A program made the translations under genes and the position numbers. A stretch of 64,000 bases of DNA from a virus: IMG/VR virus record IMGVR_UViG_3300038620_000126, positions 46,247-110,246 of that record; one strand, 5' to 3'. This document shows positions 10,741 to 63,144 of this stretch, piece by piece (the first letter of the stretch is position 1; every line of letters begins with the position of its first letter). The notes under the pieces are model-generated. The model was not told where the DNA came from. It worked only from the letters and a program-made list of their open reading frames with translations, and made no database searches.

Positions 10741-10854
10741 TGTAACGCTGTTTTTTTGATTCAATCGACTCAACTGTTAAACATTGTTAAGATCAAACAA
10801 GTTCCATGAACTATCCAAGATTGATGAGTTTATGCTTCATTTTATAAAAACAGT

Positions 10855-20411: not shown

Positions 20412-20422
20412 TAAAATATTTG

Positions 20423-20494
20423 TCGAGTGGGCAGGATTCGAACCTGCGTGATCTAGCTCCCAAAGCTAGTGCCTGACCTCTAGGCTACCACTCG
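20423..20494 (-). tRNA. tRNA-Pro (UGG)
   Basis: A full 72-base cloverleaf on the minus strand: 7-bp acceptor (CGAGTGG with CCACTCG), D arm, anticodon stem CTAGC/GCTAG with loop TTTGGGA giving anticodon UGG, T arm with GGTTCGAATCC. CCA is not encoded. It lies between a plus-strand structural gene and a minus-strand internal-protein gene. Confidence 0.93.
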
Positions 20495-20531
20495 TAGAAA
20501 CATTTTTTACATACTAAAATTTTTAAAAACG

Positions 20532-21023
20532 TTATATCATTTTATCAATTTGCTTGTAAAGACTTGGAAATCTTTTATTTATATCAACCAAAAGAGAACG
20601 GTTTAAAGTATTAGAAAATATAGAATCTAAAAACTTAAGTAACTTTTTTTCTTTAGTAGATTCACTTTTAGTGTTTATTATAGTAGCTGCTTTTTTATAT
20701 AAATTTTCACTTTTTCTTCCATCTGGAAGCTCACCATTCATAAATCCATTTACAAACTCATGAAATCCCATATAATCTAACTCATGAAAAAGAACACGAA
20801 GTGCTATAATAGAATATTCATCTAAAGAATTTTTTTGTAAAGCATCAACAACATGTGTTACTTTTTTATACCTATTATCTATGTTTGGCTTGTGAAGTAT
20901 AGTATTGTAATATTTTACTATTTTGTCAACAATATTATTAGATTTAATTTTACTGTTATTTTCATTAATTCCACTTTGACTTTCATTAACAAATTGATTA
21001 AATGTGGGTAGTTTGCTTTTCAT
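20532..21023 (-). CDS. capsid-targeted internal protein, 163 aa
   Basis: Begins MKSKLPTFNQFVNE, a leader of the shared type with a V-N-E cleavage site at residues 12-14; its DNA still resembles the leaders at 9.2 and 10.0 kb. The rest is helical and lysine-rich with no recognised domain. A late box lies at 21039..21047. Its position 9 kb from the main internal-protein cluster shows the family is dispersed among tail genes. Confidence 0.7.
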   Translation of the reverse strand: MKSKLPTFNQFVNESQSGINENNSKIKSNNIVDKIVKYYNTILHKPNIDNRYKKVTHVVDALQKNSLDEYSIIALRVLFHELDYMGFHEFVNGFMNGELPDGRKSENLYKKAATIINTKSESTKEKKLLKFLDSIFSNTLNRSLLVDINKRFPSLYKQIDKMI

Positions 21024-21038
21024 AATCGTTGTTTTTTT

Positions 21039-21047
21039 TATTTATTA
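21039..21047 (-). promoter_or_regulatory. late promoter box TAATAAATA
   Basis: TAATAAATA on the minus strand, 15 bases before the ATG at 21023; its first bases are the TAA stop of the gene at 21045..23051. Confidence 0.6.
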
Positions 21048-23051
21048 GTAATTTCTACCAAACTTAGGTAAATTATATATTGGCTTAGCATTATCTAATA
21101 TCCATGCAAGGTGTGCATCTTTAACAGTGTTATAGTTTAAAAATGTGCTTTGTTTTTCAACCTCAATGGGTTGTTTCATTAATCTTATTGCTGTTTGCCA
21201 AAAGGGACCTGACCATAGTTTCCAACCACTCTCTAAACTGAAACTAAATTTATTAATTTCAACGGTGTTTTCATATATTTGTTTTAATTCAGTGCTTTGT
21301 TCACGAGCTTTAACATCAGGATATGCAGATGGTCTCCATAGCGAAAGTTGCAATTGTTCATAATCGTTTATTATTTGAAAAACCATTGCATACCATTGTT
21401 CTTCTGGAAGTAACTTTTCTCCAATATCCCATGTAAATTCTGAATTGTTTATAAAAGCTTTAACTATTTGTTGCTCAAACAAATAGATTTCTAATCCCAT
21501 TTTGTTATTTATATCACCAAATAGCTTAGACGGAATAACCTGTTGAATGCCGGTTCCTGTAAGATCCGATGGGATATTTACATCAATGTTACGGGTATCA
21601 ACCTCAAGTGTTTTATTATCTGTGTTAATAACTTCAAAGTAATCATTGCTTATACCAAAAAGTTTAATCCAGCCATTTACAGGAAACTTATGATTTTTAT
21701 TTAAGCTAACAACAATTTTTCCATCGTTTTTGGAAATCGAATTTATAAAATCCGACGGAAATTCATTGGGCTTATAATTTTTATTTAGTTCTTGCAATCT
21801 AAACCATGTTGTAAATGTAAGGTTTTGATCCTGATTCAGTGTTGCCTGTTTTTCATATTCAACTACTGGAACAGGTGCTTTAAATTGATTATAAACAGAA
21901 TAGTTTTGATAAACATTTTGGGTTATCGTAGTGTAGTTATTAATTAAGTGTTCATTAGTTATAACTAAATTATCTTCAACTGCACTTCTTTGTATAGTTT
22001 TTGAAAATGTTTCAATTTCTTGCTGTTTGGGGTTTGTAACATCTTCAATTTCTTCTGTTTTTTCTGGCTCTACAACATCTTCAGTTCCTGTTGTCTTTTC
22101 ATCAAGAAAATCTAAAACATTTTCGGGTTTTTTAACATTAGAACGTTCTTCATATTTCTTACAACTAAGTTTCCACCACCCTGGTTGAAGCATAAGCCAT
22201 CTATATAAATAAACTGATGTAACTTCATAGAGTCTGTTATTTAAGCTTGCATATATAAAGTCATGACGATTAGGCTGAGCACCAGCACCAAACACTTCTT
22301 GAAAATAATTATATTCTATTAAAAGCTCTAACTCCCCTTCAAAATCAATTCCAAAAGGATTAAAATTAAAACGGGATTCTGGGTACTCATTACTATCCGT
22401 TAAAACACGTATACATTGATTTTCAACGGTTTCATAAATACCATACTGTTTTAATATGTTATCTGTACTTTGGGCATCTGGCTCAACTTTAAAGTAAGAA
22501 ACATCTAAGCCATACATTTTATTTGTAAAATTGTTCAATGTTTGCCAACTATCCACAAAGCATTGAACATCATCAGGTTCTATTTTATTCATCTCTCCTA
22601 TTTCAATGGTTTGATCACCGAATACCAACGTATCAGTACAATCAACATAATAGCCACATGATATACATTCGTTTGGCTTTTCTGGTGGAACTTCTGGTTT
22701 ATCTTTGTTTAGTGTTTCTGCATCAATTTCATACGAATCCAATGTAAGTTCACCCGATAGGTTTTGCTTAAGAAGAATTTTAATTTCTAAATAAAACTTT
22801 TTACCTGTAAAATTAATGTTATAAAGTTTATAAAGTGGAATCCATGTTGAAAAGAAGTTATTATCCCATGAATATCGAAACTCAAAATTAAAAATTTCTT
22901 CTGGATTACTTAATGTTTTACCGTTTTTATCACTAAAATTAAACTTAATATCTTTAAATACTTTAATTGAATTAAAAGGTTCCTCAAATCCAAAAATAAA
23001 TTTATCACCTGTTTCTACAAACTTAACATTAAAGTTTATTTGTTTTATCAA
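21045..23051 (-). CDS. large virion structural protein, TTG start
   Basis: A 668-residue protein starting at TTG 23051 right after a late box. The N-terminal 110 residues look like a beta-sandwich. A Cys-bearing segment C-I-S-C-G-Y-Y-V-D-C (near 132-141) follows, then a Trp/Tyr-rich domain (Y-R-W-L-M-L-Q-P-G-W-W-K-L near 285), an acidic Glu/Pro/Thr linker (near 310-345) and a C-terminal beta domain with E-Q-W-Y-A-M-V-F-Q. It resembles tail or baseplate-associated proteins of large phages but no specific family can be named. Confidence 0.6.
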   Translation of the reverse strand: MIKQINFNVKFVETGDKFIFGFEEPFNSIKVFKDIKFNFSDKNGKTLSNPEEIFNFEFRYSWDNNFFSTWIPLYKLYNINFTGKKFYLEIKILLKQNLSGELTLDSYEIDAETLNKDKPEVPPEKPNECISCGYYVDCTDTLVFGDQTIEIGEMNKIEPDDVQCFVDSWQTLNNFTNKMYGLDVSYFKVEPDAQSTDNILKQYGIYETVENQCIRVLTDSNEYPESRFNFNPFGIDFEGELELLIEYNYFQEVFGAGAQPNRHDFIYASLNNRLYEVTSVYLYRWLMLQPGWWKLSCKKYEERSNVKKPENVLDFLDEKTTGTEDVVEPEKTEEIEDVTNPKQQEIETFSKTIQRSAVEDNLVITNEHLINNYTTITQNVYQNYSVYNQFKAPVPVVEYEKQATLNQDQNLTFTTWFRLQELNKNYKPNEFPSDFINSISKNDGKIVVSLNKNHKFPVNGWIKLFGISNDYFEVINTDNKTLEVDTRNIDVNIPSDLTGTGIQQVIPSKLFGDINNKMGLEIYLFEQQIVKAFINNSEFTWDIGEKLLPEEQWYAMVFQIINDYEQLQLSLWRPSAYPDVKAREQSTELKQIYENTVEINKFSFSLESGWKLWSGPFWQTAIRLMKQPIEVEKQSTFLNYNTVKDAHLAWILDNAKPIYNLPKFGRNY

Positions 23052-23061
23052 AGTTTTTTCT

Positions 23062-39094: not shown

Positions 39095-39844
39095 TTAAAA
39101 ACAATTACTAGTAAAGTTCATAATTTCTAAATTAATTTCATCTTCTGATATTTCGTACTTATCATCTACTTCAATAACTTTATTACCCATTTTTTCAAAC
39201 ATAGAGTTTATTGTATTCCCTCCTCCAAAAGATATTACATTAGGAGAAGAAACTATAAGATAGTGCCATTCAGTATGGGTATCCACTAAATATTGAATTT
39301 TTTCACGGTTAATGTTAATAGAATCACCATATTCTTCAACCACGTCATATATTTCTATATTATAATCTTCTGCATATTCTTTACACACTTTAACTTGTTC
39401 ACACATCTTATCGTAACTTTGCATATGATTAACTCTAGCGTATATTATGCATTTATTAGCTGTAGATTTTCCGGTTTGGTTATGGTTAAAATCATCAAAT
39501 GCTTTTTCAAAATTAACTTTTGCAAGTGCAAGTTTAGCTCCATCACATCTTATATACATATCATTTAATTTTCCTTTATTGAAATCGTGTTTTACTTTAT
39601 CATATGTAAAGTTACCATATTGCGCATAAACACTGATTGGCAAATAAAGTAATAAATCACCATTTTCTCTACTTGCATTGTATATGTTATAAAAGTCTAC
39701 ATACGCTGGTATATGTCTATAATTTTTATATTCTTTTGATGGTATTTTATTACGTTGACACCAACTATTAACAGTTGATGGTTTTTTGTTATTAAAGCGG
39801 GCGTACAATATGGGTCTAATATAAACTAGTTTTGTTGTGTCCAT
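39095..39844 (-). CDS. serine-recombinase-like protein with the catalytic Ser replaced by Asn
   Basis: 249 residues. The C-terminal part reads K-C-I-I-Y-A-R-V-N139 ... C-E-Q-V-K-V-C-K-E-Y-A-E-D-Y-N-I-E-I-Y-D-V-V-E-E-Y-G-D-S-I-N-I-N-R-E-K-I-Q-Y-L, the resolvase catalytic-domain pattern Y-A-R-V-S ... Q ... G ... D-x-x-S-G ... R. The nucleophilic serine that follows Y-A-R-V in active enzymes is Asn here. The N-terminal 110 residues contain two helix-turn-helix-like segments. HTH first and catalytic domain second is the IS607-type order. It is probably a DNA-binding protein without recombinase activity; what it binds is unknown. Confidence 0.6.
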   Translation of the reverse strand: MDTTKLVYIRPILYARFNNKKPSTVNSWCQRNKIPSKEYKNYRHIPAYVDFYNIYNASRENGDLLLYLPISVYAQYGNFTYDKVKHDFNKGKLNDMYIRCDGAKLALAKVNFEKAFDDFNHNQTGKSTANKCIIYARVNHMQSYDKMCEQVKVCKEYAEDYNIEIYDVVEEYGDSININREKIQYLVDTHTEWHYLIVSSPNVISFGGGNTINSMFEKMGNKVIEVDDKYEISEDEINLEIMNFTSNCF

Positions 39845-39875: not shown

Positions 39876-40340
39876 TTATGTTACTTGAAAAGCGGTTACA
39901 CCATTTTTAGTGTACATATTAATAATATCTGGATTATCATCAAATGCAATAATGTTGTAATAAGTTGAACAATCAAAACAACTATGAAGCCATTTTTCTT
40001 TTAGATCGGCTGATCTGGATAAATCGCTGTTTGGTCTCATGTACAAATTTTCATCGTTAATAGCTAAAATACCTTGGTTCATAAACCAATCATGAGTAAG
40101 GCTTCTTGCATCGTTTGATCGTCCAGTAAAATAGTATACGTTATTTAATTTATTTTGTGCTAACATGCAAACAAGAATTTGCCAGTACAAATTAAACATG
40201 GGATATTTTGGGTTGTCTTTAATACATTCTAAATTAAACTTATTCCATTCTTTTGAACGTTTATTTAAATACTTTTGTTCACGCCATGATGCATCTGAAA
40301 GTGTACTATCAATATCAAAAATGTAAATAGGCGACTTCAT
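39876..40340 (-). CDS. HAD-family phosphatase, polynucleotide 3'-phosphatase-like
   Basis: 154 residues. Motif I F-D9-I-D11-S-T, then Y-F-T-G-R near 70-74, a basic segment D-L-K-E-K-W near 112-117, and A-F-D-D-N-P-D near 132-138 form the HAD phosphatase signature. The order T-G-R ... T-H-D-W-F-M-N-Q-G ... M-R-P-N-x-D matches the 3'-phosphatase domain of T4 PseT, without the kinase half. It could repair 3' ends of tRNA or DNA during infection. A box-like AATAAATA lies at 40351..40359. Confidence 0.72.
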   Translation of the reverse strand: MKSPIYIFDIDSTLSDASWREQKYLNKRSKEWNKFNLECIKDNPKYPMFNLYWQILVCMLAQNKLNNVYYFTGRSNDARSLTHDWFMNQGILAINDENLYMRPNSDLSRSADLKEKWLHSCFDCSTYYNIIAFDDNPDIINMYTKNGVTAFQVT

Positions 40341-40350
40341 TAGTTTTTTA

Positions 40351-40359
40351 TATTTATTA
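40351..40359 (-). promoter_or_regulatory. late-type box TAATAAATA
   Basis: TAATAAATA on the minus strand, 10 bases before the ATG at 40340, overlapping the TAA stop of the gene at 40357. It is the only such box in the replication block and may be fortuitous. Confidence 0.4.
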
Positions 40360-41082
40360 ACTTGAATCTTTTATAGATTGGGACAAAGAAGATGTTACTT
40401 TTTTACTGTTCAAATCTTTCAGTTTATAATATGATATCTCTTTTTTAATTTCTTTAACAATAGAATTAATAGATTTATGAAAAGTAAAACTTATATTATA
40501 AAAAAAATCGTTTAATAATTTTGCAAACAACTTTGATATATAATAACTTTGCAAATCCATACTTATAGTGTTGTAAATGACATAACCAGATTCAAGACCA
40601 CTAAAAACAAGTGGATTATTGGTGTTGATAACTTCGCGACTTTCAGATATGGCGCTAACTAATTTGACACTTTCAATAAAACGTGAAAAGTTTTGATTTG
40701 TATTTTGTAACTTATTAACAGACTTTTCACAATTAATAAAGTAATCAAAATCTTTTTTATAATTATTCTTAAATAAATCTAATTTTTTTGTATCTGCACG
40801 TTTAGTAAATCTATCTACTATAATTAAACTGTTAGGAACAAGAACACCAAAGTTAATAACCAAGTTGTTATCAACTTGATTAAGTGAAATCTTTTCAAAA
40901 ATAAATGTTTCATAACACCTTTTTCTTGAAGATGGAGGTCGAAATGTAAATGAATAGTTTGGATCGACATTGTTTTGCGTCTGTATAAATAGATAGCTAT
41001 CTAGCCTAAGACTCACTTTTTTAAAAAATTTAATAAGATACTTTAAGTATTCAATATCGGTTTCAGGAGAATATGAATGCAT
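40357..41082 (-). CDS. hypothetical protein, member of a three-gene paralog family
   Basis: 241 residues from ATG 41082, overlapping the preceding stop in TGATG. Shares with 41082..41774 and 42268..42921 an opening Y-L-K-x-L-I/V-K/R-F-F, a middle Y-K-x-D-F-x-x-F and an end K-E-I-K-K-E-I-S-Y-Y-K-L-K. Close to 41082..41774 (R-C-Y, F-I-E-S). Probably an all-helical plus beta protein; no function known. Confidence 0.6.
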   Translation of the reverse strand: MHSYSPETDIEYLKYLIKFFKKVSLRLDSYLFIQTQNNVDPNYSFTFRPPSSRKRCYETFIFEKISLNQVDNNLVINFGVLVPNSLIIVDRFTKRADTKKLDLFKNNYKKDFDYFINCEKSVNKLQNTNQNFSRFIESVKLVSAISESREVINTNNPLVFSGLESGYVIYNTISMDLQSYYISKLFAKLLNDFFYNISFTFHKSINSIVKEIKKEISYYKLKDLNSKKVTSSLSQSIKDSS

Positions 41083-41774
41083 CACTCTTGTTCTTTTTTA
41101 GTTTTTTTCAATTTATAGTACAGTAGTTCACTTTTAACCTCTTTGACAAATAAATCTAAAGTTTTGTAAGACTTCAAATATGAAGTAATTTTAAAATAAT
41201 TGTTATTACTTTCTTTTAGTAATAAATCATCTTCTATTAGGGACTTAAACAAATAAGAAATTGATGAACTTTGCAGGTTAAAAACTAATGTGGTAGACAC
41301 ATAATAACCATATTCTCTTTTAAAATAAGTTCTGTTTTTTGTTTGTAAAATTTCTTTTACTTGATCTGAAACAACAACAACTGGAGTTGCGCTTTCAATA
41401 AAAGATAAAAAGTTTTGGTTTTTGGCTTCTGGTTTATTAGTTGTCTTTTGATGTTTAACAAAATTCTTAAAATCTTCTTTATACTTATTTGAAAGAAACT
41501 CAAGTTTAGTGTTATCCTTGATCGCCACATCAAAAGCGATAAAAAGAAGTTTATTAAATGTGCTTATCGAAAATTCAGTAGGTTTCCAACACTCGGAATA
41601 ACATCTTCTTTTGTTCACTGTTCCAAACGTATAAGAATATACTGGTATACTTTGAATTAAACTTGGATATTCCGGTTCCATTCTGTTAATTACTGCATTA
41701 AAGAATTTAACAAGACCTTTTAGATATACAGTATCAATTTCAGGAGCATTACTTTTACTGTTTGTGTTAGTCAT
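41082..41774 (-). CDS. hypothetical protein, second member of the paralog family
   Basis: 230 residues from ATG 41774. Pattern Y-L-K-G-L-V-K-F-F, K-R-R-C-Y, Y-K-E-D-F-K-N-F and K-E-V-K-S-E-L-L-Y-Y-K-L-K-K shows descent from the same ancestor as its downstream neighbour. The overlap with both neighbours indicates translational coupling. Function unknown. Confidence 0.6.
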   Translation of the reverse strand: MTNTNSKSNAPEIDTVYLKGLVKFFNAVINRMEPEYPSLIQSIPVYSYTFGTVNKRRCYSECWKPTEFSISTFNKLLFIAFDVAIKDNTKLEFLSNKYKEDFKNFVKHQKTTNKPEAKNQNFLSFIESATPVVVVSDQVKEILQTKNRTYFKREYGYYVSTTLVFNLQSSSISYLFKSLIEDDLLLKESNNNYFKITSYLKSYKTLDLFVKEVKSELLYYKLKKTKKEQE

Positions 41775-42234
41775 CACCTATATCTTCAAAATATTTTTTA
41801 AATAAATACAAACCATGTGAACGTTTTGCTTCAAGGGACTTATCAAAAGTTTCAAAGTCTTCTCTAGAAAGTTCTTTTTCTTTTTGTTTGCGTAGCCTTG
41901 ACCAATAATTATCACAATCTGGATGTGGTAGAGAGCCTATTTCAAAAGCATTAATTATATCACAAAGTATTTTTCTATCGTCTGAACGAAGCCCATCAGG
42001 TATTTCACCTTTTTGAATTTTCTGTTCCCTTACTGGATCATAAATAATTGGAGCATGTGAATTATTTTCACAATAACTTAAATGATCTTTCATAACTTTT
42101 GCTGCATACATACATATGCTTTCAACTGGAAACCTTTTTTCATAAGAAGTGCGGTCATACGTTTTTCCAGTAATAAGCTTTCTAAAAAACGCTTTTATAG
42201 AATCAACTACTAAATAAAGAGTGTTGCAAAACAT
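41767..42234 (-). CDS. hypothetical protein, 155 aa
   Basis: A soluble protein with a hydrophobic start, then a charged body with D-L-I-N-A-F-like helices and a C-terminal Y-L-F-K-K-Y-F-E-D. Overlaps the next gene by 8 bases. It separates two members of the paralog family. No domain recognised. Confidence 0.55.
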   Translation of the reverse strand: MFCNTLYLVVDSIKAFFRKLITGKTYDRTSYEKRFPVESICMYAAKVMKDHLSYCENNSHAPIIYDPVREQKIQKGEIPDGLRSDDRKILCDIINAFEIGSLPHPDCDNYWSRLRKQKEKELSREDFETFDKSLEAKRSHGLYLFKKYFEDIGDD

Positions 42235-42267: not shown

Positions 42268-42921
42268 TTATACTAAAACTTTATGTAACTTATGAGAAGA
42301 TCTTTTGACTCTTTCTTTTTTCACGTAATTTACCGTTTTAAAGAGCCTACTTTTTGTAATAAAATTGTTAAGATCAAGATATTCATCTGATAAAAATTCT
42401 TTACAAATTGATGCAGTAACCACGTCACTAAGAGCTAATGTAAACACTAAATAAAACTCTGTAGCTTTGCTTTTATTAAGATATTGATAATCTAAGTAAG
42501 AATTATTAAGAAGATGCAAATAATTTGAAGTTTTGTTTATGTTATTATCCTTATCACGTTTTTCCAGCAGATAACGCAAAAAACTATCAAAATCAGATTT
42601 ATAACGCTTTTTTATGTGCATTAAAACAGAACTGTTTCTCATCCAATCCAAGTTTACATAAATCTTTATAACCAAACTGCTACCAATTGAGTTAACAGAA
42701 ACAACCTTTGCTTTTTCATTTTGTAACAGGGAATAAGTTTTTTGTAAATGTTTTTCAGTGGTTTTAAGAAATTCTGAATCAGTTTTAAATACAAAATTTC
42801 TTAATAAACGCTTATCAACAAATCCCAAATGATTTGTTGTTCTAGCTAAAAACATCTTAAAAAAGCGAATTAGCTCTTTTAAGTAATTTTCATATTCTGA
42901 AGTCTTAGTTAATTTATCCAT
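42268..42921 (-). CDS. hypothetical protein, diverged third member of the paralog family
   Basis: 217 residues. Keeps the Y-L-K-E-L-I-R-F-F opening and Y-K-S-D-F-D-S-F-L-R in the middle but has lost the R-C-Y motif and has a basic tail (V-K-R-S-S-H-K-L-H-K). It follows the polymerase gene by 8 bases. If the polymerase C-terminal half once lay here it has been displaced. Confidence 0.6.
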   Translation of the reverse strand: MDKLTKTSEYENYLKELIRFFKMFLARTTNHLGFVDKRLLRNFVFKTDSEFLKTTEKHLQKTYSLLQNEKAKVVSVNSIGSSLVIKIYVNLDWMRNSSVLMHIKKRYKSDFDSFLRYLLEKRDKDNNINKTSNYLHLLNNSYLDYQYLNKSKATEFYLVFTLALSDVVTASICKEFLSDEYLDLNNFITKSRLFKTVNYVKKERVKRSSHKLHKVLV

Positions 42922-42929
42922 AATTTTAT

Positions 42930-44450
42930 CTAACTTTTATCGTTAAGCATTTTTTCCAATTTTTGAATTTCATTTTCTATCTCACCAGCACCACGCTTAT
43001 AACTATAACGCTTATCAAAGAGTTTACCAACAAAGTTTGAAAGGGTTGAATTATTTTCCTTGCTGAAAACAGCGCCGCCTGTGTACTGACTATTATTATT
43101 TAAAACTTTTTCTGAATTATCATTTTCTAAAAATGCAGTTAATAAATGTTTTTCAGGATTAAATTCTTCCCAATTACCAGTTTGTTCATTATAAAATTCA
43201 GTTGAATCTGGAGTTTCTAATTTTCCCAAGTAGGTGTCAACGCCTATATTGTACTGCAACATTATGGATGGATACATAGATGTAAAATCCATTGAAAATA
43301 TATTGTGTCGGATACCTAACTTAGGTTCCTTAACGTATGCACCACCATAACCCGCACTTACATCTTCTTTCTTCTTATTGGGGTCTTTTAAGAGTATTCG
43401 TTTTTGTTGATAATACTCTGAAAACAATAGTCTTTCAGCTATATAATTAGAGCTAAATGTTTGAAGTTGTGGTACTTTACTGGCATTTGTAAGAGATAAG
43501 AATGTTGAAAATGTGTTTAATTTTTCATCAATCATTTCAACAAAACAAGCATCAATGGCATTATAAAATATATACCATTTATAATCTTTTTCATACAATT
43601 CTGGAAGCGTACCAGAATATTTAACCTTGTTTATACCGAGAGCTGCGTTTGCTACCCAATCAAGCGAACCAGATTCTTTAACTTTAATCTTTTTATCCCA
43701 CTTTTGATAAACCTCCATATAGTCAAAAACTAAACGGTGGTTAGGTTGCTTACGCCAACCATGCCATGTGTTCGTTGGGCTTGCCTCTGATGCCAAATCT
43801 ATATCAAACTTTTTACAACGATTTACTAAATACTGCCAATCAAACTCTACAAAATTCCAACCAGTAAGACAGGGCATCTTTTTCACAAATTTATGTGTGA
43901 ACGCATAAAGCATGTTTTTCTCGTTTTCAAAATAAAGATACTTTAACTTCCATTCTTTATTTATACCAGCACTATTGTTGTTAATATGTTCATTTATGTT
44001 TTTCTGTATATCACTTATTTCATCTTCGTTCAATGGTTTTAAACCTAAAACAAAAATATGACCTTTTTGATTACATAATGCTATTGTTGTAACTGGCTGT
44101 TCCGCTTTTTCAGCATGTGGAAACCCTTCATCGCTAACACCAACCTCAATATCCACAAAATACATTTTAGGATAATTCATCGCATATATAGCTTCTTTAT
44201 CCTGATCTGATAAATTTTCAAGAAATTCAAACAAACGAAATTTGGAAAATGTTTGTTTAACCTCACGTTTTTTAACAGGTCTTCCATCCCATGATAAGTA
44301 TCCTTTAATCCTATTTTTATCATTTTGAGATGCATAAGCCCAATCATACTGTTCATTTGGGCTTAAAGTATATGAAAGTAAACGATTGTTACCATCACTA
44401 TCAAAATAAGATATATGCACTTTGTTACCATTATGTTCTATATCTAACAT
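42930..44450 (-). CDS. 43: DNA polymerase family B, N-terminal half only (exonuclease and motif A)
   Basis: 506 residues. Exonuclease motifs: Exo I V-D100-I-E102, Exo II N199-F-V-E-F-D204, Exo III Y296-N-A-I-D300. Polymerase motif A is S-M-D388-F-T-S-M-Y-P-S-I-M. The protein ends about 110 residues later in a basic helical stretch, before motifs B (K-x3-N-S-x-Y-G) and C (D-T-D-S). T4 gp43 has 898 residues. Splits at about this point are known in some T4-like phages, where a second gene carries the C-terminal half. No such half is in this window, so it lies elsewhere or is lost. Located in the early operon. Confidence 0.85.
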   Translation of the reverse strand: MLDIEHNGNKVHISYFDSDGNNRLLSYTLSPNEQYDWAYASQNDKNRIKGYLSWDGRPVKKREVKQTFSKFRLFEFLENLSDQDKEAIYAMNYPKMYFVDIEVGVSDEGFPHAEKAEQPVTTIALCNQKGHIFVLGLKPLNEDEISDIQKNINEHINNNSAGINKEWKLKYLYFENEKNMLYAFTHKFVKKMPCLTGWNFVEFDWQYLVNRCKKFDIDLASEASPTNTWHGWRKQPNHRLVFDYMEVYQKWDKKIKVKESGSLDWVANAALGINKVKYSGTLPELYEKDYKWYIFYNAIDACFVEMIDEKLNTFSTFLSLTNASKVPQLQTFSSNYIAERLLFSEYYQQKRILLKDPNKKKEDVSAGYGGAYVKEPKLGIRHNIFSMDFTSMYPSIMLQYNIGVDTYLGKLETPDSTEFYNEQTGNWEEFNPEKHLLTAFLENDNSEKVLNNNSQYTGGAVFSKENNSTLSNFVGKLFDKRYSYKRGAGEIENEIQKLEKMLNDKS

Positions 44451-44925: not shown

Positions 44926-46071
44926 TTAGAATCCAATATATGTATCGTTATCTATAACGTTGCTTTCTACTTCATTATTAAAAATTTCAGAAAGATAAGC
45001 ATCTCGGTTTAATTTTCCTTTACCAATACTATCACAAATTTCATTAACATTTTGTTTTGGTAATTTAGAAAATTTATGTCTAAACATTAGCCTACCGGGC
45101 CTCAAAAGAGCTTCATCTATTAAATTAAGATCTTGATTGAATGTAATTACAATTCTGCACTTAATAGCATCATTTAGAATGCCATCTGTAAGCTGCAGTA
45201 AATTATCTACCGCATCTGAATCTGGATTATGACTTCTCGATTTAATAGCATTATCGGCTTCTTCAATGAGCAAAACGGAATCCGTATTATTAGACAAAAT
45301 AGATATTAATTCTGGATCAGCAAGAGACTTACTAAACTTTGATGGAATAAAAATTATATTATTAACCTCATGTTGAAGGTCTTGAGCTATTTTTCGAAGC
45401 AAATAAGTTTTGCCAGTTCCAGGATTACCGTGAAATATGTATATTCCACTTTGCGTGGTTTTTAAGTTATTAACAACCCCATTATACTTTTCGGTAAAGT
45501 TTTTTCCGTAGTACAAATCCAAATCTGGAATATGTACTTTTTGTATTTTCATGTTATCTAAATCTAGACCATTATTAGATGTTTTTAGAAACATTATATC
45601 TGCACCATTAGAGTCATACGTTTGCACCACGTTCTCTAATATAAAGTTATCTAAAAGTTCAACTACATCATTAAATACATCCTGAGTTGCCATGATTTTT
45701 AACTCCCTAACAACCGAATCTTTTTGATTTTCAACATCGTTGCTTTTAATTTTGTAAACTGTTCTTTTTTCTGTACCGTAAATAAACGTAAAATAAAAAG
45801 AATCAAAGTAATGTTCTTCTACTACATCATGCACAAGTGCATCTTTTTTAAAAAATGCATCTATATCAGATCTAGAAAGTTCATAATTGTATTTACTTTT
45901 AAGCTCTTCAATAAAGTTTAAAATATCTGAATAAGCAAAATGATTATAAATCCTATAATAATAGGGGTTGTAACCGTAACTTTCAAAAAAGCTTAAAACA
46001 TCATTTTTGAAAGTGTGTTCATTATATTGACCAACAACTTGCTTCTGTTTGGGATTGCTTATGTTATTCAT
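44926..46071 (-). CDS. AAA+ ATPase
   Basis: 381 residues. A helical N-terminal region of about 200 residues precedes the AAA+ core: Walker A G-N-P-G-T-G-K-T (215-222), Walker B V-L-L-I-E-E (266-271), sensor 1 V-I-T-F-N (308-312) and R-P-G-R (324-327), the arginine motif of FtsH/BCS1/p97-like AAA proteins. It should remodel a protein or nucleoprotein complex, probably one linked to replication given its neighbours. It starts inside the end of the gene at 46064 by 8 bases. Confidence 0.78.
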   Translation of the reverse strand: MNNISNPKQKQVVGQYNEHTFKNDVLSFFESYGYNPYYYRIYNHFAYSDILNFIEELKSKYNYELSRSDIDAFFKKDALVHDVVEEHYFDSFYFTFIYGTEKRTVYKIKSNDVENQKDSVVRELKIMATQDVFNDVVELLDNFILENVVQTYDSNGADIMFLKTSNNGLDLDNMKIQKVHIPDLDLYYGKNFTEKYNGVVNNLKTTQSGIYIFHGNPGTGKTYLLRKIAQDLQHEVNNIIFIPSKFSKSLADPELISILSNNTDSVLLIEEADNAIKSRSHNPDSDAVDNLLQLTDGILNDAIKCRIVITFNQDLNLIDEALLRPGRLMFRHKFSKLPKQNVNEICDSIGKGKLNRDAYLSEIFNNEVESNVIDNDTYIGF

Positions 46072-48328: not shown

Positions 48329-49102
48329 CTAAAAAATTTGATTTGTGGCTGAACCTTGTTTTGTTGATTTTATTCTTTCCTCGGCAATGTTACAATATTC
48401 TTGAGCCATATCTATACCGATCCAATCCCTTCCTAATAGTTTTGCAGCTACTCCAGTTGTTCCTGAACCAAAAAACGGGTCTAATACGACACCTTCCTTA
48501 GTAGAATCAATGCATCTATAGGGCAATTCAACGGGGAAGGGGGCAGGATGATTATTGCTTCTTTCTTGTGAAAGTTTCCAAATATCAGTTAACTTATTTG
48601 CTCCCCTTTTCAGCTTAAAATCCTTTTTTGCAATCATGTAAATAACTTCATAGACTGGTAAGAAATAGCTGTTATTGAAATTAATTCCCCCATTTCTATG
48701 CCATATTATTATTTGTCGTAAAGGGAAGCCATCAATTATTTCCCTTCGATCTTGTAATAGACCATCTTGAACCCTCCATTTGTGGTTATAGAAGATTACC
48801 CCATCATCTCTTAAAACCCTCATCATTGAATTTAAGCAGTCACGTTGCCACTGGACATACTCATCATAAGGCATGTTATCATCGTAGTTTGAATAACCGT
48901 TAGTTAACTTAGGATTAATCCAACGTCCTTTATTTGAGTTTTTCCAAAAATTTCCACTAGAATTTTTAATATTATAAGGTGGTGATGTTACAATTACACT
49001 GATTGATTGTTCAGGTAATTGATTATCCATAAAATTAACACAATCTGAACAATGTACTTTGTTTATAAGACTAGAATTTACAAATTCTTTACTTTTACCC
49101 AT
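48329..49102 (-). CDS. DNA methyltransferase, beta class (N4-cytosine or N6-adenine)
   Basis: 257 residues. Catalytic motif IV V-T-S-P-P-Y-N (38-44) precedes motif I D-P-F-F-G-S-G-T-T (208-216), the beta-class order, and N-H-P-A-P-F-P-V-E-L-P (184-194) is the usual motif just before it. The target base and recognition site cannot be read from the sequence. It may protect phage DNA from host restriction. No restriction enzyme gene lies nearby. Operon member. Confidence 0.85.
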   Translation of the reverse strand: MGKSKEFVNSSLINKVHCSDCVNFMDNQLPEQSISVIVTSPPYNIKNSSGNFWKNSNKGRWINPKLTNGYSNYDDNMPYDEYVQWQRDCLNSMMRVLRDDGVIFYNHKWRVQDGLLQDRREIIDGFPLRQIIIWHRNGGINFNNSYFLPVYEVIYMIAKKDFKLKRGANKLTDIWKLSQERSNNHPAPFPVELPYRCIDSTKEGVVLDPFFGSGTTGVAAKLLGRDWIGIDMAQEYCNIAEERIKSTKQGSATNQIF

Positions 49103-54207: not shown

Positions 54208-54215
54208 TATTTATT
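54208..54215 (-). promoter_or_regulatory. late-type box AATAAATA
   Basis: AATAAATA on the minus strand, 21 bases before the ATG at 54186; overlaps the TAA stop of the giant gene at 54211. Confidence 0.5.
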
Positions 54216-57200
54216 CTTTTTCTAATTCAACGGAAAATGAAACAGCGTTTGTACTATTATCATTTAATCTGTAAGTTCCTGTAATTACTAGGTCTTCAGA
54301 TATTGAATTAATACTAACATTTTTATTGGGAATGAATCCATTTTGAAATTTTTGTGTATCAGAAATATTAGTTTGTACTAATTCTATTTGTTGATTTTGT
54401 TTTAGTGTTTTTGTAAACAAAATTAAATTCTTTAGAGTATATTCATTTACCACGTTAGCATCAAAGTATCTGCGAATATAGTCATCTATGCTACCATTAC
54501 TAGAAAAGTTCGACCAGTCTGGATTAATATAATTTTCAAAATAGCTTCTTGACTGTTCTACAAAGTTTTCTAACATTCTACGTTTTAAGTTAATCTTAAA
54601 ATTAAGTTGCAGCCCATTTCTTTGATGGAAAATATCATTACCTTCAAAAACTTTAGTGCTAATATTGTTTATATCATTGACTTCAGTTGATTTAAAGGTT
54701 TCAAAGTATAACCTTTTGGGTATTGCCATGCGTTTTGATCCCATATACGCCTTTTCTTCCACAAATTCACGGCTTCCAACTATTGGAATATCTTGTTTAT
54801 TAAGATTTGTCTTTCTATAGTAACCAGAATCCCAGTTAGAAAGCCAAATAGGCATTGACCTATTATTAATGGAATTTTCACCTACTAAAAAGTAGAAACT
54901 TGGAAAAACTTGGTTATTTGAAAGATTTAATATATTCTGGTTTTCATAGTTTATTCTTAAATACCATTCTTCAGGAATCTTTCCAATATTTTCATTATAA
55001 TTAATTTCAACATTTTCTAAAAATAATTGATTTTTTGAAAATTCAATGTTATCATTTTTGAACCTGTTAAGACTTGTTTTAAGCTCTTGAAATGTTGTAT
55101 CAAAAGTTTCATTTATTGTTTCAATATTAAAAGTGGTCAGCGGGTTTTCATCAAATATTGCTTCAGTATAATTATTAAATTCAACTGGTGTTTGATAAAG
55201 ATTAGGATAAACATTCAAAAACTTAGTAAACATGTAATCAACAGATACTGGTAAATCATAAGAACAGAAACTCAATAAATTATAAAATATAGGTTCATAG
55301 TATCCACTGAACCGATTAAAGTTTTTAGGTTTGCTTAAATCAAAACTTTCTAAATTATAACCTATTGTATCTTTAAGTTGAAGCTCACCGGGTTTATTTG
55401 TATCTTTAACAACATTAACATCTTCATTTTTTGTAAATGTGTCGTATTTTACAAATTCAATGAGAAACTCGTTAGTTGTTTTAATTTGATTTCCATTATT
55501 ATCCCAATCATAGCTTTCATAACCCACAAGTGGATTTCCGTTATTTACCATTTCAGCAATACTGGAATATGATAAGTCTTTTATTACATCCTGAAAATAA
55601 CTAACACCTCCATATTCATAAAAGTAACTTGTTTCATCAACATTGAAGTTACCGAATAATGAATTTTTTACTATCCATGGAGATGAATAGATAAACTGAT
55701 CTTCAACATTAATAACAGCAGAACTAGCTACAGATGGTTCAAACCCTATTGAAAAAGTGTTAATTTCATTTATAGGTAAATGGTAAGGCAAACTACCTTC
55801 GCGAAGAACTGGATCATAAAAACTAATTATAGAACTAGATGGATTAGGATACAACGTTTTACCAGAATTTTGAAGATGACCATTAAATTTTGGACTAAAG
55901 TTATTAGAACTTTTATCAAATTTTGGAAAGTTATTATCAGGATTTGCGTATATTCGTTCATAATAACGAAGTGAATCATTTTGCTCTAAAAGCCCCCAAT
56001 TATTATTAACTAAACTAAAGTCTGATTTGTAACTATTATAAATGTTATACCAACGAGACCCTATTCTTCCAGTAGATTCCGAATCAAATATTATTAAAGA
56101 ACTGTAGTCATTAACTTTATTTGATTTATCTAAAATTTCTTTTGTTCCACCTACATAAAATGGAAAGTTTTCATATTTGCCAATGTTTACTTGTTTTAAC
56201 TGTTTACCAACAAAGCTTTCAGTTTCGCTTAACATCGTGGGTATTTGCTCATAATCAGACTGCGTTAAATCAAGTTTATCATTTATCCAAACACCATAAG
56301 TAAAAAATGGAGCTTTTTGGTTTGCAGGTGGTGGTCCATAAGTAGAAAAAAGTTCATTACCCTGTGAACTATAACTAATTTGTGAAAGATATGAATCATA
56401 TATAAACGGTATGCCATATTCATAATGAAAAATATTATTATTAAAATGATCTTTTTTCCATTTTAAATCATTAAGACTATAAAGTGCAGTATATGTAGGA
56501 GTGAATTTATATTCATTAAAATCTTTAATAACTTCATCATAGTTTCCTTTCAAAAGTTTATAATCTTCTAAGTAAACATCTATTAACATTACAATTGTTT
56601 CGAATGCTTTATTTTCTATAAACCTAATACTATAAGGGGTGTTAAATTCATTACCACTATTTTTATTAAAACGCATAAGAACCGAGAACTTGTAGTTATC
56701 AAAGCGATTTGAATCAGCAACAATTGGTATGTCGTCTAAATTAAAATTTACAGGGGTACTCGTATCGGCTCTTTCTTTTATTTCAAGGCGACCCCCTCTA
56801 AAAAATGTAAATGACGTTCCAAAATTTGAATTATATTCAAACAAACTAAACCTTTGTTGACGTTCATTTAACTTAAACTTTTCTTTCTTTTTGTACGAAA
56901 CTTTTGGTAAAGTATTAGTGCCCAAGTCTCTAAGTTCTACACTACTAACATTGTAGTAAAAGTTTCTCGAAACGGACTGCCCAATATTATGATAGTTTGT
57001 ATCAAACTTCTCATTAGTGTAAATTTGTGGATTAAAAAATTCTAACATTTCATTTTCCACATTAATTATATTTGAAACTTCACTAGAGAGAACTAAATTA
57101 CTATTAATGTTTATAAAATCTCGAACAATATTAAAAGTTTTAGGTCCAGTTTTAGTTATTTTATGTTCAACTTTAACACCTAAACTAGTATCTTCAAGTA

Positions 57201-60200
57201 ATGGTGGAAATATATTATCTAAAACAGCACCATTAGCAACGTTTATGATAAAGTTCAAACCTTGACCAGAAGAAGGAATTTCCCTTTCATTTAATTTAAG
57301 ATTATTTTTAACAACTTTATTAACATTTGAGTATTCACTATTTTTGTGATCAATTCCATAAATTATTAATAAAAGAAACCTTCCTTTATTATCGCTAAAT
57401 CTTCCATACTTATTATAAACTTTATAAGTGATTGGTTTAAGAGTCTGGCTTGTATTCCATGAATTACTTTTGTTTTGATAATCTGATATACTTACAACAG
57501 GATAAAATCTATTTACTTGAGAAGATACTGGTTGATTTGAAAAATTAGTTGCATCCCAATTATAAGCAGAGTTTAACCTGTAACCTTCTTTTTTATATAC
57601 AAGTGCATTTTCATTAGGATTTTCATAATCTGGATTTATCAAATTAGGAACTTTAAGCCTCATTCCAAAGTAGTTTTTAGTATCAAAAGTATCATAATGT
57701 TTTGGATAATATGACTGGCCTAATCCAACAGGTTCACCATTAAAAATACCATAGTTATTTTTAATGGGGGTGTTATCAGTGGATGATTCGGAATAATAAA
57801 TATAAGAATCTCTAAGTTTTACACTTAATTTATCACCCGCGTTTATTGTATTGAGGTCATCATCTGTAATATTAGTAATATATAAACTTCCATAGTTAAT
57901 ATAAGCAGGTGCAAAATCCCAACTAAAAGGTTGATTTCCTAAATCAATTCGGGATATATTATCATTCAACTGATTAATGTTAATTTGAAAATTAAAAGTT
58001 TTAACTTCAGTTTCTGAAATTTCAAAAGAAGTTAAATCATAATCTAAAGGTGGTTCATTTTCGGGGTTTGAATTGTTGTCATTTGAGCTGGGTGGTCTTT
58101 GGTACTCATAATCCAAAGAAACACTTAAATATCCATTATTAACATCTGTTTGTGTTACTTCGTAAGATATATTTTTATCTAAAACATCTACTTTATTTTT
58201 TTCACCATAAACCGGAATGGTGGCATAAGGCGTGTTAGATATAACATATGGATGCAAAACAGGTAAAGGAACTTGATTAAAGTTATAATCACCTTGTTGA
58301 ACGAGTACAGGAACCTTTAGTGTTTGTTTTTGTGTATCTTCTTCATAGTTTAAGTTAAATCCAATAGACTGCGTGCTATTTGGATTAGTAAGACTTATTA
58401 AAGCGGGATTATAAACACTAATTTCACCAAAAAGAATCTTGTAAGTTTTTTCCTGTGAATTTTGAATATTAATTTCAAAACACTTAAATGCTTTATTAAC
58501 TGGAACGCCGTTTTCAATTACATGTTCATAAACAATACCTTTATCAACTATATCATAAAAACTGCTATTGAAATTTTCTAAAAATTCAAGTTCCAAAAAG
58601 TCTGGCATCAAATTGTAAAAAGTTGAACCACCACTCTTTTCATAGACATTAAAGGGTTTGATGCCTACAACAATATCTAAAAATCCAGTTTGACTATTAA
58701 ATTCATCTTCTGTTTCTAAAACAAAATTTGGAAGATTTACTTCATAAAACTTTTTTCCATTAGAGTCAAATTTAACAGTAGTTTCAACGTGTGATAATTG
58801 ACTGTTAAGATTAACACTAACTGGGTGATTCGGGTTAAGTCCTGTTGGATATTGGTTTGCGTTGTTCAGTACAAAATCTTGACTTACATCTTTATTATTT
58901 GAACTCGTATAAAGAATATTAGGATAATTAACATTCTGCTCTTTTTCAGTTAGTTCAAATGATATTGGTTTTTGGGGAACTTCATAGTCATCCCTGGGGC
59001 CTGTTACACCGTCATGTAAAATTTTAATACTAGGCTCATACCAAATTTTAATATCTGATATACAGTCTAATACAACTTTATTTTCATTATTTTTAGTATC
59101 GTAATAAACATTCCTAATTTCTAAGTTTGCGGTAGATCCAAATTCATCATAACTATAACTAAAAGTTCCACCGATTAAATCAGTTATATCTTGTACATCA
59201 ACTTCACTAACATTAAGATAAACCAAACAATGATGCGGGTTATCATTAACCCACCTTCCATTAGGAGTGTTTGGTTGAAATTTTTTTCCATTTTGTTTTA
59301 CTTGTGTTTCTATCAGGTCTTGTAACGGAACACTTAAATTTGAAAAATCAAATTCTTCACTTGAATTATCATAAGTATAATCAAATCTAGTGTACGGAAA
59401 TTCGAACTCAATATTATCTAAAGTAAACTCAAAAGTTTTTTCATCTTTTGATTCTACATCTTCAACAGTAAAATAATCAAGAAAATAATCATAATATGGA
59501 TTAAGATAATTATGAATACTAAAGTCTTTATTAAAGTAACTTACGTTTTTATCAGATAGTCCATAAGTTTCAGGGGTGCCTTCTAAATAATACCATTCAT
59601 GGGTAAACTTGGTTGGATCATTATCACTAAGATCAAACGAAGGTGAAAAGTTTTGTGGGCCAAACGCATCATTGGCATTAAGACGATATGGATTTCCTCT
59701 AACATCTTTTCCACCTTTTAAGCGCCACTTCGCTATACTAGGCGACAACTTACCCAATGGAAATAGTTCAGTATTAAATAGTTCTTTATAATGTTCATAC
59801 TCAGATGATAAATTTAATGAAATTAAACTATCATACTTAGCATTAACTGTATTTTCTATATTTGTAGATTCATTAGGAACTAATCCTTTAATACCAATAA
59901 AGTCCTTTAAGTCTTCTTCAAATTCAATTGTGTTTTCATCAAACACATAAAAGTCTAAGTCATTAGAATTAACAACATTGGCAAATTGAGATGGGTTAAA
60001 AGTTTTCAACTTAAATTCACTGCTTTGAGTATCTTGTTCAAACAAAGGTAGTTTTTTAGAAATCCATTCGTACTTTATGAAATATTTTTCATTTTCATCA
60101 AGCGTTAAAAATGGATAAAATGATTTAAATTCATTTCTGTTTATTAAATCAGATAACAAAGTAGTATAAAACTTTTCAAAAGATATAAACATTATATTCT

Positions 60201-63144
60201 TTTCAAAACGAAGAATATCACCCTTTTCAAAATAATTAATTATGTAATAAGAAGCTCTTTCTTTTTTATTGGTTGGGCTAAGTTCAAATTTATAAACCGT
60301 ACCATCATCTTTAATTGCAACAGCACCATCGTACTTATAATTGGGTTCAACATCATCTACTAAAATAACATACTTTCCAGAATTTGGAATTTCAACTTCA
60401 AAATTTGCAGAACTAAAAGTTATACTAGGATTTGTAATAGATGGTGGGTTTGTAGTATCTTCGGACGGACTATTAGCACTAAACTCTTTAACTAAGTTAA
60501 AATTTCTAAGAATTTTTCTACTTAAAATATTTAAAAAATCAGCATAACGCTTAGTTGATGCATCTAAATACAACCTATCAAAAATCTTAGGATTACTAGT
60601 GGTAAGACCTGCTTCATTAAGCTGATCTAAAATATACTTTACATCTTTTGTTGTTCCATTTGTTAAAAGATACTTGGCGTTAAGTATAACTGGGTTTCCA
60701 CTTTTAACAGTAAACTCTTTTACGGGTAAACCATCTTCATCATAAGTTCCAACAAATGCATTCTTTCTGAACGTTTTATTTAACCCTCTGGCAATTCGCC
60801 CAAGCGTGGTTAAGTTGGGATTAGGAGAACCAGAAAAAACATTTGTACTAATAGAACTATCAATAAGTTCTTGTGCTAATGTTGCATTAAAAAAATCAAT
60901 AAAAGTTATACCACTGGGAGCATATCCATCTAATTCTCTAGAATTAAAGGTTTTTCCATTGTATTCAATAGTTGATGATGTATTACCATTATCTAAAACA
61001 ATATAAACATCTCCGGGAATTATCTGACCCGAACGTACATTAAAAAATTCTTTATATTCATTTAAGTAATTAGTTGAATATTGTGTAGATAAATAACGAT
61101 TATCAAAATCCACTAATGGGTAAAATGAAAAAATTCCAAACAATGGATTAAACGGATTAGCCCAATTAAATGTATTAGAATTATCAATTAAAATTTCATC
61201 ATTTTCATTACCTACTACAATAATTTTTTTATCTATGTTGTTAAAACTTTCAACATTAAACTGTGCATCAAAAATTTCGTCATTAAGATTATCCACAAAA
61301 GCAACAATAGGACGCCACCCCGATTTGCATTTTACATATCCATTAGGATTAATTTGAGAAGCAACATCACCATCTACAATCAGTTTATTTTCTCCCCGGA
61401 TTTCACCACCACTTAACTTATTATTTGATGAAATTAAATTTCCAGTTTCATCAATAATTTCAATAGAGTACTGGTTTCCTATACTACCAACATCAGAGTA
61501 AATATAAACCACATTATCTTGAGCATAGCTATTGATAGTAAATCCAAAATTTGGATTATTTGAAATTGCATTTGAAAGTGCAATTGCTATTTGTTCTTTA
61601 TTGCCTTCAGGGTGAAAATAAAAACCATCTGTACTAGTTCCAGGTACATGACTTTCTACATTCGGTAACCTATCTGCATATACTCTACCAATTTCCCGCT
61701 TCGAGTTTTTTACAATAATTTGAGTTCCATTTTTTAATTCACCCTCAACAGAAACTTTAACGTTGGCTCTGGTAGAATCCGTATAAAGCCTTCCAGTTTC
61801 TGAATTAGTAAAAGGCTCAACACCAAAGAATTCATCTAATACAACCCCCTCCCGCAAAAGTTCATATTCATTACTTTCAACATTATTAATTTTGTAAAGA
61901 TTGCGATTTTTACTTTTAACATATCCAATAGCATTGGTGTTCTGAAAATCTTGTTTATTCCACAAATAACCTTTAGACTTTTCAGAATTATATGGAAGCG
62001 TAAATGTTTTAGAATCTATTACTTGATTTTTTGCACTAGGGTTAAAAGGATTAAAATCCTTAACAGAGTAAAGCTCTTTTATTTTGTTTAAATCAGGTTC
62101 TATTTCACCCAAATCAAAGTCATCAACATACATCCCAAAATAACGATTAATTTCATAGTTTTCAGCATTTGGATCATTAAAAAGAAATTCAAGATTAATG
62201 ATATTGGGGCATATAACACCATTTCTTTCAAAACCATTTGTTACAAATTGATCAAATTCAGTAACAGACTTTTCGGATTTAAGATAATCAGTAAAATCTT
62301 CACCAACTTGAGAAAGTTTACCATCACTTAATTTTATACCTCCATAAAAAGCAAGTTCATCTTCCTTAAAATTAAAGAACAAAGGAGAATCTGGAAAATT
62401 TTCATTTGTTTTAAAATTACGAATATAAGAACCGATTGAACTGTTTTCACTAAGGTCAAAATTAGCTATTATTTCAGCATCTTCAATATAGTTCTTAAAA
62501 TATTCATAACTTATTACATTTTCTAACTGATTATTTTCATCAGTATCTACAACTTTCACATTTATAACTTCTGGGCTATAATTTGGATTAGCCGAAGCCA
62601 CGAAAGTATTACCTTCAGTTATGGTATTGTCGTCATAAGATATTTGCCCCCTTACAACCTTATAGGTTTTTCCCTCAATTAATGAACCCGATTCAACATT
62701 TGCAAATGGGTTATTAGTAATGGGATCTCGAACTTTAAATATAACAAAGCGGGAAGGTATATTCTCTTTTAACCAGATAGGAGCAAATATGGAAAAATCT
62801 TCATTGTACCCCTTTTCTGGGTAAGTTACACCATAATTATAAAAATCCTCGAACTGTAAAAAGTAATTTTGCTTAACGGTTCCTATATCATCATTTTCCC
62901 GAAACACATCGAAAACAAATTCTGACGGGGTATCACCAAACTTAAAAAAACTAGCAACATCTAAATGATAATCTGAACCAGGATTAATTCGAACCCGTTT
63001 ATATTCATCTTTACTAAGTTCAGAATTTGCAGAAAAGGAATTAAACCATAAACGGTTATGGCTATCAACAGTCAATTTTAAATTACCTGATAACTTCGGA
63101 TTAGTACGAATTAAAGACTTACTAGTTTTTTCTTCTAATTTCAA
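54211..63144 (-). CDS. giant virion protein, 2977 aa, TTG start
   Basis: One uninterrupted frame of 8.9 kb from TTG 63144, 10 bases after a late box. The protein is Asn/Asp/Tyr/Phe-rich, low in Cys and Trp, and beta-rich throughout, with many N-G, D-N and Y-D-F motifs, typical of a large extracellular fibre or whisker component. No membrane segment, signal or enzyme motif is seen. No internal repeat stands out on reading. It would be one of the largest proteins of the virion, and it is followed by the collagen-like fibre gene. Exact role unknown: a tail-side fibre, baseplate-anchored arm or tape-like part are options, though the beta-rich make-up argues against a helical tape measure. Confidence 0.7.
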   Translation of the reverse strand: MKLEEKTSKSLIRTNPKLSGNLKLTVDSHNRLWFNSFSANSELSKDEYKRVRINPGSDYHLDVASFFKFGDTPSEFVFDVFRENDDIGTVKQNYFLQFEDFYNYGVTYPEKGYNEDFSIFAPIWLKENIPSRFVIFKVRDPITNNPFANVESGSLIEGKTYKVVRGQISYDDNTITEGNTFVASANPNYSPEVINVKVVDTDENNQLENVISYEYFKNYIEDAEIIANFDLSENSSIGSYIRNFKTNENFPDSPLFFNFKEDELAFYGGIKLSDGKLSQVGEDFTDYLKSEKSVTEFDQFVTNGFERNGVICPNIINLEFLFNDPNAENYEINRYFGMYVDDFDLGEIEPDLNKIKELYSVKDFNPFNPSAKNQVIDSKTFTLPYNSEKSKGYLWNKQDFQNTNAIGYVKSKNRNLYKINNVESNEYELLREGVVLDEFFGVEPFTNSETGRLYTDSTRANVKVSVEGELKNGTQIIVKNSKREIGRVYADRLPNVESHVPGTSTDGFYFHPEGNKEQIAIALSNAISNNPNFGFTINSYAQDNVVYIYSDVGSIGNQYSIEIIDETGNLISSNNKLSGGEIRGENKLIVDGDVASQINPNGYVKCKSGWRPIVAFVDNLNDEIFDAQFNVESFNNIDKKIIVVGNENDEILIDNSNTFNWANPFNPLFGIFSFYPLVDFDNRYLSTQYSTNYLNEYKEFFNVRSGQIIPGDVYIVLDNGNTSSTIEYNGKTFNSRELDGYAPSGITFIDFFNATLAQELIDSSISTNVFSGSPNPNLTTLGRIARGLNKTFRKNAFVGTYDEDGLPVKEFTVKSGNPVILNAKYLLTNGTTKDVKYILDQLNEAGLTTSNPKIFDRLYLDASTKRYADFLNILSRKILRNFNLVKEFSANSPSEDTTNPPSITNPSITFSSANFEVEIPNSGKYVILVDDVEPNYKYDGAVAIKDDGTVYKFELSPTNKKERASYYIINYFEKGDILRFEKNIMFISFEKFYTTLLSDLINRNEFKSFYPFLTLDENEKYFIKYEWISKKLPLFEQDTQSSEFKLKTFNPSQFANVVNSNDLDFYVFDENTIEFEEDLKDFIGIKGLVPNESTNIENTVNAKYDSLISLNLSSEYEHYKELFNTELFPLGKLSPSIAKWRLKGGKDVRGNPYRLNANDAFGPQNFSPSFDLSDNDPTKFTHEWYYLEGTPETYGLSDKNVSYFNKDFSIHNYLNPYYDYFLDYFTVEDVESKDEKTFEFTLDNIEFEFPYTRFDYTYDNSSEEFDFSNLSVPLQDLIETQVKQNGKKFQPNTPNGRWVNDNPHHCLVYLNVSEVDVQDITDLIGGTFSYSYDEFGSTANLEIRNVYYDTKNNENKVVLDCISDIKIWYEPSIKILHDGVTGPRDDYEVPQKPISFELTEKEQNVNYPNILYTSSNNKDVSQDFVLNNANQYPTGLNPNHPVSVNLNSQLSHVETTVKFDSNGKKFYEVNLPNFVLETEDEFNSQTGFLDIVVGIKPFNVYEKSGGSTFYNLMPDFLELEFLENFNSSFYDIVDKGIVYEHVIENGVPVNKAFKCFEINIQNSQEKTYKILFGEISVYNPALISLTNPNSTQSIGFNLNYEEDTQKQTLKVPVLVQQGDYNFNQVPLPVLHPYVISNTPYATIPVYGEKNKVDVLDKNISYEVTQTDVNNGYLSVSLDYEYQRPPSSNDNNSNPENEPPLDYDLTSFEISETEVKTFNFQININQLNDNISRIDLGNQPFSWDFAPAYINYGSLYITNITDDDLNTINAGDKLSVKLRDSYIYYSESSTDNTPIKNNYGIFNGEPVGLGQSYYPKHYDTFDTKNYFGMRLKVPNLINPDYENPNENALVYKKEGYRLNSAYNWDATNFSNQPVSSQVNRFYPVVSISDYQNKSNSWNTSQTLKPITYKVYNKYGRFSDNKGRFLLLIIYGIDHKNSEYSNVNKVVKNNLKLNEREIPSSGQGLNFIINVANGAVLDNIFPPLLEDTSLGVKVEHKITKTGPKTFNIVRDFININSNLVLSSEVSNIINVENEMLEFFNPQIYTNEKFDTNYHNIGQSVSRNFYYNVSSVELRDLGTNTLPKVSYKKKEKFKLNERQQRFSLFEYNSNFGTSFTFFRGGRLEIKERADTSTPVNFNLDDIPIVADSNRFDNYKFSVLMRFNKNSGNEFNTPYSIRFIENKAFETIVMLIDVYLEDYKLLKGNYDEVIKDFNEYKFTPTYTALYSLNDLKWKKDHFNNNIFHYEYGIPFIYDSYLSQISYSSQGNELFSTYGPPPANQKAPFFTYGVWINDKLDLTQSDYEQIPTMLSETESFVGKQLKQVNIGKYENFPFYVGGTKEILDKSNKVNDYSSLIIFDSESTGRIGSRWYNIYNSYKSDFSLVNNNWGLLEQNDSLRYYERIYANPDNNFPKFDKSSNNFSPKFNGHLQNSGKTLYPNPSSSIISFYDPVLREGSLPYHLPINEINTFSIGFEPSVASSAVINVEDQFIYSSPWIVKNSLFGNFNVDETSYFYEYGGVSYFQDVIKDLSYSSIAEMVNNGNPLVGYESYDWDNNGNQIKTTNEFLIEFVKYDTFTKNEDVNVVKDTNKPGELQLKDTIGYNLESFDLSKPKNFNRFSGYYEPIFYNLLSFCSYDLPVSVDYMFTKFLNVYPNLYQTPVEFNNYTEAIFDENPLTTFNIETINETFDTTFQELKTSLNRFKNDNIEFSKNQLFLENVEINYNENIGKIPEEWYLRINYENQNILNLSNNQVFPSFYFLVGENSINNRSMPIWLSNWDSGYYRKTNLNKQDIPIVGSREFVEEKAYMGSKRMAIPKRLYFETFKSTEVNDINNISTKVFEGNDIFHQRNGLQLNFKINLKRRMLENFVEQSRSYFENYINPDWSNFSSNGSIDDYIRRYFDANVVNEYTLKNLILFTKTLKQNQQIELVQTNISDTQKFQNGFIPNKNVSINSISEDLVITGTYRLNDNSTNAVSFSVELEKE

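Follow-up and report, generated by a model that had tools for sequence, protein, structure and literature searches.

Does a DNA polymerase gene that ends soon after motif A encode a working part of a larger enzyme, and if so, where is the rest of that enzyme? We asked this of a gene in a 64,000-nucleotide stretch of viral DNA (the window), which comprises positions 46247 to 110246 of a virus record that is linear and 110,246 bp long. The gene is exactly the minus-strand open reading frame (ORF) listed first in Table 1, running from an ATG start to a TAG stop, and its product is referred to here as P0001. Pfam models identified the exonuclease domain PF03104 and DNA_pol_B (PF00136), the latter over model positions 16 to 147 of 453 only, and the exonuclease motifs and palm motif A were located individually. 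An earlier sequence-only reading of the locus, which had described an exonuclease and motif A in a gene that stops before motifs B and C, is confirmed on this point. The best PHROGs match, phrog_2062, is a family of 502 positions that corresponds to the N-half alone and was already in PHROGs; it aligns with P0001 from end to end (residues 2 to 504 of 506 against positions 6 to 498, E = 3.4e-74). The gp43 family phrog_262 (856 positions) is matched in its first 496 positions only.

Table 1. Features of the P0001 gene (positions in the window) and unsplit polymerases of relatives (positions preceded by the sequence handle).
Feature	Coordinates	Strand	Extent	Evidence
P0001, split family B DNA polymerase, N-terminal half	42930..44450	-	506 aa	ORF, PF03104, partial PF00136, phrog_2062, RB69 gp43
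Exo I motif, MYFVDIEVG	44139..44165	-	residues 96-104	D100, E102 invariant, 27 sequences
Exo II motif, TGWNFVEFDWQ	43833..43865	-	residues 196-206	N199, D204 invariant, 27 sequences
Exo III motif, YIFYNAIDACFV	43539..43574	-	residues 293-304	Y296, D300 invariant, 27 sequences
Motif A (palm), DFTSMYP	43269..43289	-	residues 388-394	D388, S391, Y393, P394 invariant, 27 sequences
First fingers helix, with R481 and K485	42936..43046	-	residues 469-505	AlphaFold2 model; R481, K485 invariant
Unsplit polymerase	L046:8459-11125		889 aa	
Unsplit polymerase	L058:8519-11368		950 aa	
Unsplit polymerase	L261:8354-11146		931 aa	
Unsplit polymerase	L010:7956-10940		994 aa	

In an alignment of 27 sequences, the catalytic residues of Exo I to III and motif A are invariant, as are R481 and K485 of the last helix; the ORF and the alignment revealed no lost catalytic residue, frameshift or internal stop. 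TAG ends 9 of the 79 ORFs of at least 150 amino acids. We considered read-through of this codon and rejected it: the frame closes 7 codons further on, so recoding cannot add motif B. The next ATG lies 8 bp past the stop on the same strand.

We then searched the whole 110,246-bp record for a C-half bearing motifs B and C and found none with PF00136, phrog_262, two C-half profiles or a motif scan. The P0001 gene is the sole match to PF00136 and phrog_262 on the record. Profile A2, built from five C-halves, and profile A4, built from six including that of Flavobacterium phage MaF61, gave zero matches even at an E value of 10; the A4 search is valid because 14 of 20 other records matched it at 1e-99 or better. 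The motif B and C search proposed in the sequence-only reading, run here as a six-frame scan of the whole record, turned up neither a motif C nor a plausible candidate for motif B; the lone K-x3-N-[SAGC]-x-Y-G match sits in an unrelated ORF of 634 amino acids. A nucleotide pattern for motif B matched once, at 10787, and was dismissed as chance, the reversed control pattern having also matched once. The claim that no matching half lies nearby, made for 42 kb downstream and 19 kb upstream, thus extends to 89.2 kb and 19.6 kb, where the record ends.

The record is a linear fragment. Among 37 genes common to MaF61 and G002, the relative of highest identity, with the polymerase excluded, 17 are on the record and 20 are absent. 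The absentees include the tail sheath, DnaB helicase, both ribonucleotide reductase subunits, ligase, clamp loader (annotated "sliding clamp" in MaF61), primase and thymidylate synthase. In G002, the C-half lies 16 kb downstream of the N-half, and the block between them carries reductase, ligase and topoisomerase-like genes and a clamp-like protein (functions judged by eye from the sequences); none of the genes in this block has a homolog on our record. The corresponding stretch 16 kb downstream of P0001 is present and contains no match to profile A2 or A4. Because these 20 genes and the inter-half block of G002 are missing, the record most likely represents roughly half of the phage genome, and the missing C-half says little.

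The terminase gives the same picture. The TerL ORF (record positions 21150 to 23057; L003:2150-4057, outside the window) is missing 109 residues at its start, everything up to Walker A. In their place stands the C-part of a VidaL-like intein (PDB 6vgv, E = 8.7e-5; TIGR01443 above cut-off), whose final residues, "...GILSHN", immediately precede the Walker A threonine. TerL probably holds an atypically split intein, and its N-part, like the polymerase C-half, was not found on the record. Directly ahead of this truncated gene are four tandem paralogs of approximately 120 amino acids (44 to 80% identity; record positions 19689 to 21126, L003:689-2126).

To place P0001 among relatives, we turned to IMG/VR. 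Neither P0001 alone nor the MaF61 polymerase alone retrieved a close relative, and alignments were needed; with these, 193 stretches were found to encode N-half relatives, of which 80 were kept. All 80 ORFs stop 82 to 125 residues after motif A. The N-half is also a separate gene with the same end point in Sphingomonas phage PAU, Chryseobacterium phage MA9V-1, Tenacibaculum phages, Lak megaphages and other huge phages, and split pairs are present in PAU, MA9V-1, pT24, PTm1, Lak-C1 and the LR75650x huge phages. A scan of GTDB for the N-half gave only two clear phage-type relatives, both in Bacteroidetes-labelled bins. The split proposed in the sequence-only reading is therefore borne out by the end-to-end phrog_2062 match and by a stop at the same place in every N-half relative examined. 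It is a family-wide trait, neither decay nor an oddity of this phage. Among the papers searched, none was found to describe the pattern across the clade; Iyer et al. (PMC7824862) discuss a Pol III-like protein that is split in these phages and describe the family B enzyme as classic.

Separation of the halves is likewise ordinary for this family. We located the C-half in 30 of 50 IMG/VR records with an N-half, on the same strand and 7.2 to 23.8 kb downstream in 27 of them and more than 100 kb away in the other 3. A second scan yielded 47 loci with a gap of 1.0 to 7.1 kb, and in Lak-C1 and five huge-phage assemblies PF00136 places the C-half from 10 kb to hundreds of kilobases away. With C-halves at 1 to 7 kb, 7 to 24 kb or more than 100 kb, the expectation that the halves of a split polymerase usually lie close together fails here. 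Among the 20 records in which no C-half was located, 11 stop no more than 17 kb beyond the N-half on its downstream side; others run on for 20 to 214 kb with no C-half, as here. In several relatives (L031, L026, L249:5971-8777 and records G010, G029 and G037) the C-half has a further break close to motif C, giving a three-piece polymerase, in some cases with intein-like sequence. Motif C is a second site, with intein-like sequence in PTm1, Lak-C1 and LR756500.

These comparisons bear on two ways in which the locus could mislead, decay and an assembly break, both of which the sequence-only reading had named; intact catalytic residues, a stop at the family's end point and an ATG 8 bp on speak against both. 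A decaying remnant, in a phage that has lost its C-half and replicates with another polymerase, would account for the lack of a C-half across 110 kb. It is very unlikely, however, given that the exonuclease, motif A and fingers residues are all intact in a frame free of frameshifts and internal stops, that P0001 ends where the family ends, and that little can be read from an absence on a fragment that lacks about half of the conserved genes. The contig could instead be misjoined right after the gene, the true gene being whole or its C-half nearby, and the unsplit genes of the nearest relatives in the tree would agree with this. Such an artefact is highly improbable: the gene closes with a stop codon of its own where the family is split, the next ATG follows on the same strand, neither G+C content nor gene density shifts across the region, and structural genes shared with relatives flank the polymerase half on both sides.

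The break can also be placed on a known structure. The N-half profile aligns with RB69 gp43 as far as residue 505, and the C-half profile picks up at residue 526, which puts the break at the tip of the fingers, between their two long helices. An AlphaFold2 model of P0001 (mean pLDDT 83.7) ends in the helix of residues 469 to 505, and its best Foldseek matches are RB69 gp43 structures (E = 1.5e-22). The model is least confident around motif A (residues 360 to 391), where, in our reading, the other chain would supply the rest of the palm sheet. R481 and K485 align with RB69 R482 and K486, which are known triphosphate contacts, so that the active site would span both chains. No N-intein was found at the end of P0001: the family match covers residues 2 to 504 of 506, and the 37 residues leading up to the end form the fingers helix. 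Splicing is not expected at this break because there is no intein there.

Could the N-half act alone, as a proofreading or repair exonuclease? Its exonuclease domain is complete, and a related polymerase fragment of 388 residues has been solved by itself (1noy). Yet motif A and the dNTP-binding R481 and K485 are invariant, which a pure exonuclease would not need, and both halves are kept in relatives, making a stand-alone exonuclease extremely unlikely.

We conclude that, very probably, a Bacteroidetes-type jumbo phage encodes its family B replicative polymerase in two genes, with P0001 as the intact N-terminal subunit, the C-half in the missing part of the genome and two chains that associate without splicing around one active site. 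Against this stand the absence of a C-half from the record, the unsplit polymerases of MaF61 and L261, and the empty site at 16 kb where G002 has its C-half. In the proposed enzyme, the N-half chain would contribute the exonuclease, the N-terminal domain, half of the palm and the first fingers helix, and the break falls at the fingers tip, between the two long helices. The C-half chain, from its own gene, would contribute the second fingers helix with motif B, the remaining palm with motif C, and the thumb; in this phage that gene presumably sits in genome sequence that the record does not cover. Motif A and R481/K485 from the N-half and motifs B and C from the C-half would form the shared active site. 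The chains most likely associate without splicing; we infer both their binding and their activity.

Association into one replicative polymerase is most likely because of a precedent: according to PMC2988022, which cites Petrov 2010, 43A and 43B of Aeromonas phage 25 co-purify with polymerase activity. The split gp43 of Aeromonas phages 25 and 44RR resembles P0001 in that a T4-type polymerase is made as two polypeptides, but 43A and 43B are adjacent, with only untranslated sequence or a gene for a homing endonuclease between them, while here there is no C-half on the record. None of the four ORFs downstream of the P0001 gene (40357 to 42921) belongs to an endonuclease family. Jumbo phage MIJ3 also has a split family B polymerase, with a split intein and an HNH endonuclease between the halves (PMC6892783), neither of which is found at the P0001 break.

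Closer counterparts share both the N-half family and the break point: PAU gp105/gp110, MA9V-1 ORF135/ORF138, pT24 BPT24_165/168 and PTm1 ORF-236/239/241. In these phages, other genes lie between the halves and the N-half has no intein, as here, but the C-half is known, 1 to 4 kb away. The PTm1 C-half is cut again by the intein-containing ORF-239, annotated "intein-containing split DNA polymerase precursor." Lak megaphages and the LR756500 to LR756504 huge phages have the same N-half family and break point, with halves that are often widely separated (by 228 kb in Lak-C1 and 282 kb in LR756504); they differ in that some are broken a second time, at motif C, where there is an intein.

The genes around the polymerase half were surveyed as well. 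The sequence-only reading had placed an unrelated paralog family downstream; this holds for two adjacent ORFs of unknown family (40357-41085 and 41082-41777; 34% identity, no good Pfam match) and not for 42268-42921, which has no blastp similarity to them. Also adjoining are genes for an AAA+ ATPase (44926-46071), an N6/N4 DNA methylase (48329-49102) and a PNKP-like HAD phosphatase (39876-40340). The ORF at 39095-39844 weakly matches phrog_6620 (E = 1e-10), which carries a transposase annotation, and an ORF of 2977 amino acids (54211-63144), probably structural, is partly similar to a 2022-amino-acid ORF of G002.

In trees of the N-half, P0001 groups with the unsplit polymerases of MaF61 (one uninterrupted ORF of 994 amino acids) and L261, its nearest neighbors (support 100/98), inside a mostly split clade; unsplit L046 and L058 fall elsewhere in the same clade. 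A single split without re-fusion, modeled by holding all split rows together, was rejected (p-AU 1.4e-5, with the caveat of long branches). Because the nearest relatives are unsplit and unsplit genes recur within the split clade, break or fusion at the fingertip appears to have happened more than once, in trees with long branches and few fused genes. We lean slightly toward repeated switching between one and two chains at this point, in which case either G000 has newly split from a fused ancestor resembling MaF61 and L261, or the genes of MaF61, L261, L046 and L058 have re-fused. If so, the fingertip is a point at which a replicative polymerase tolerates both breaking and rejoining, and the halves may drift more than 100 kb apart.

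Two unlinked genes for one replicative polymerase raise the questions of how the chains meet and how fidelity is kept. A regulatory role of separate expression in replication can likewise be tested, as can the reasons for which the break persists in most of a large phage clade. In annotation, many genes labelled "DNA polymerase" in jumbo phages are half-genes, whose partner should be sought up to hundreds of kilobases away.
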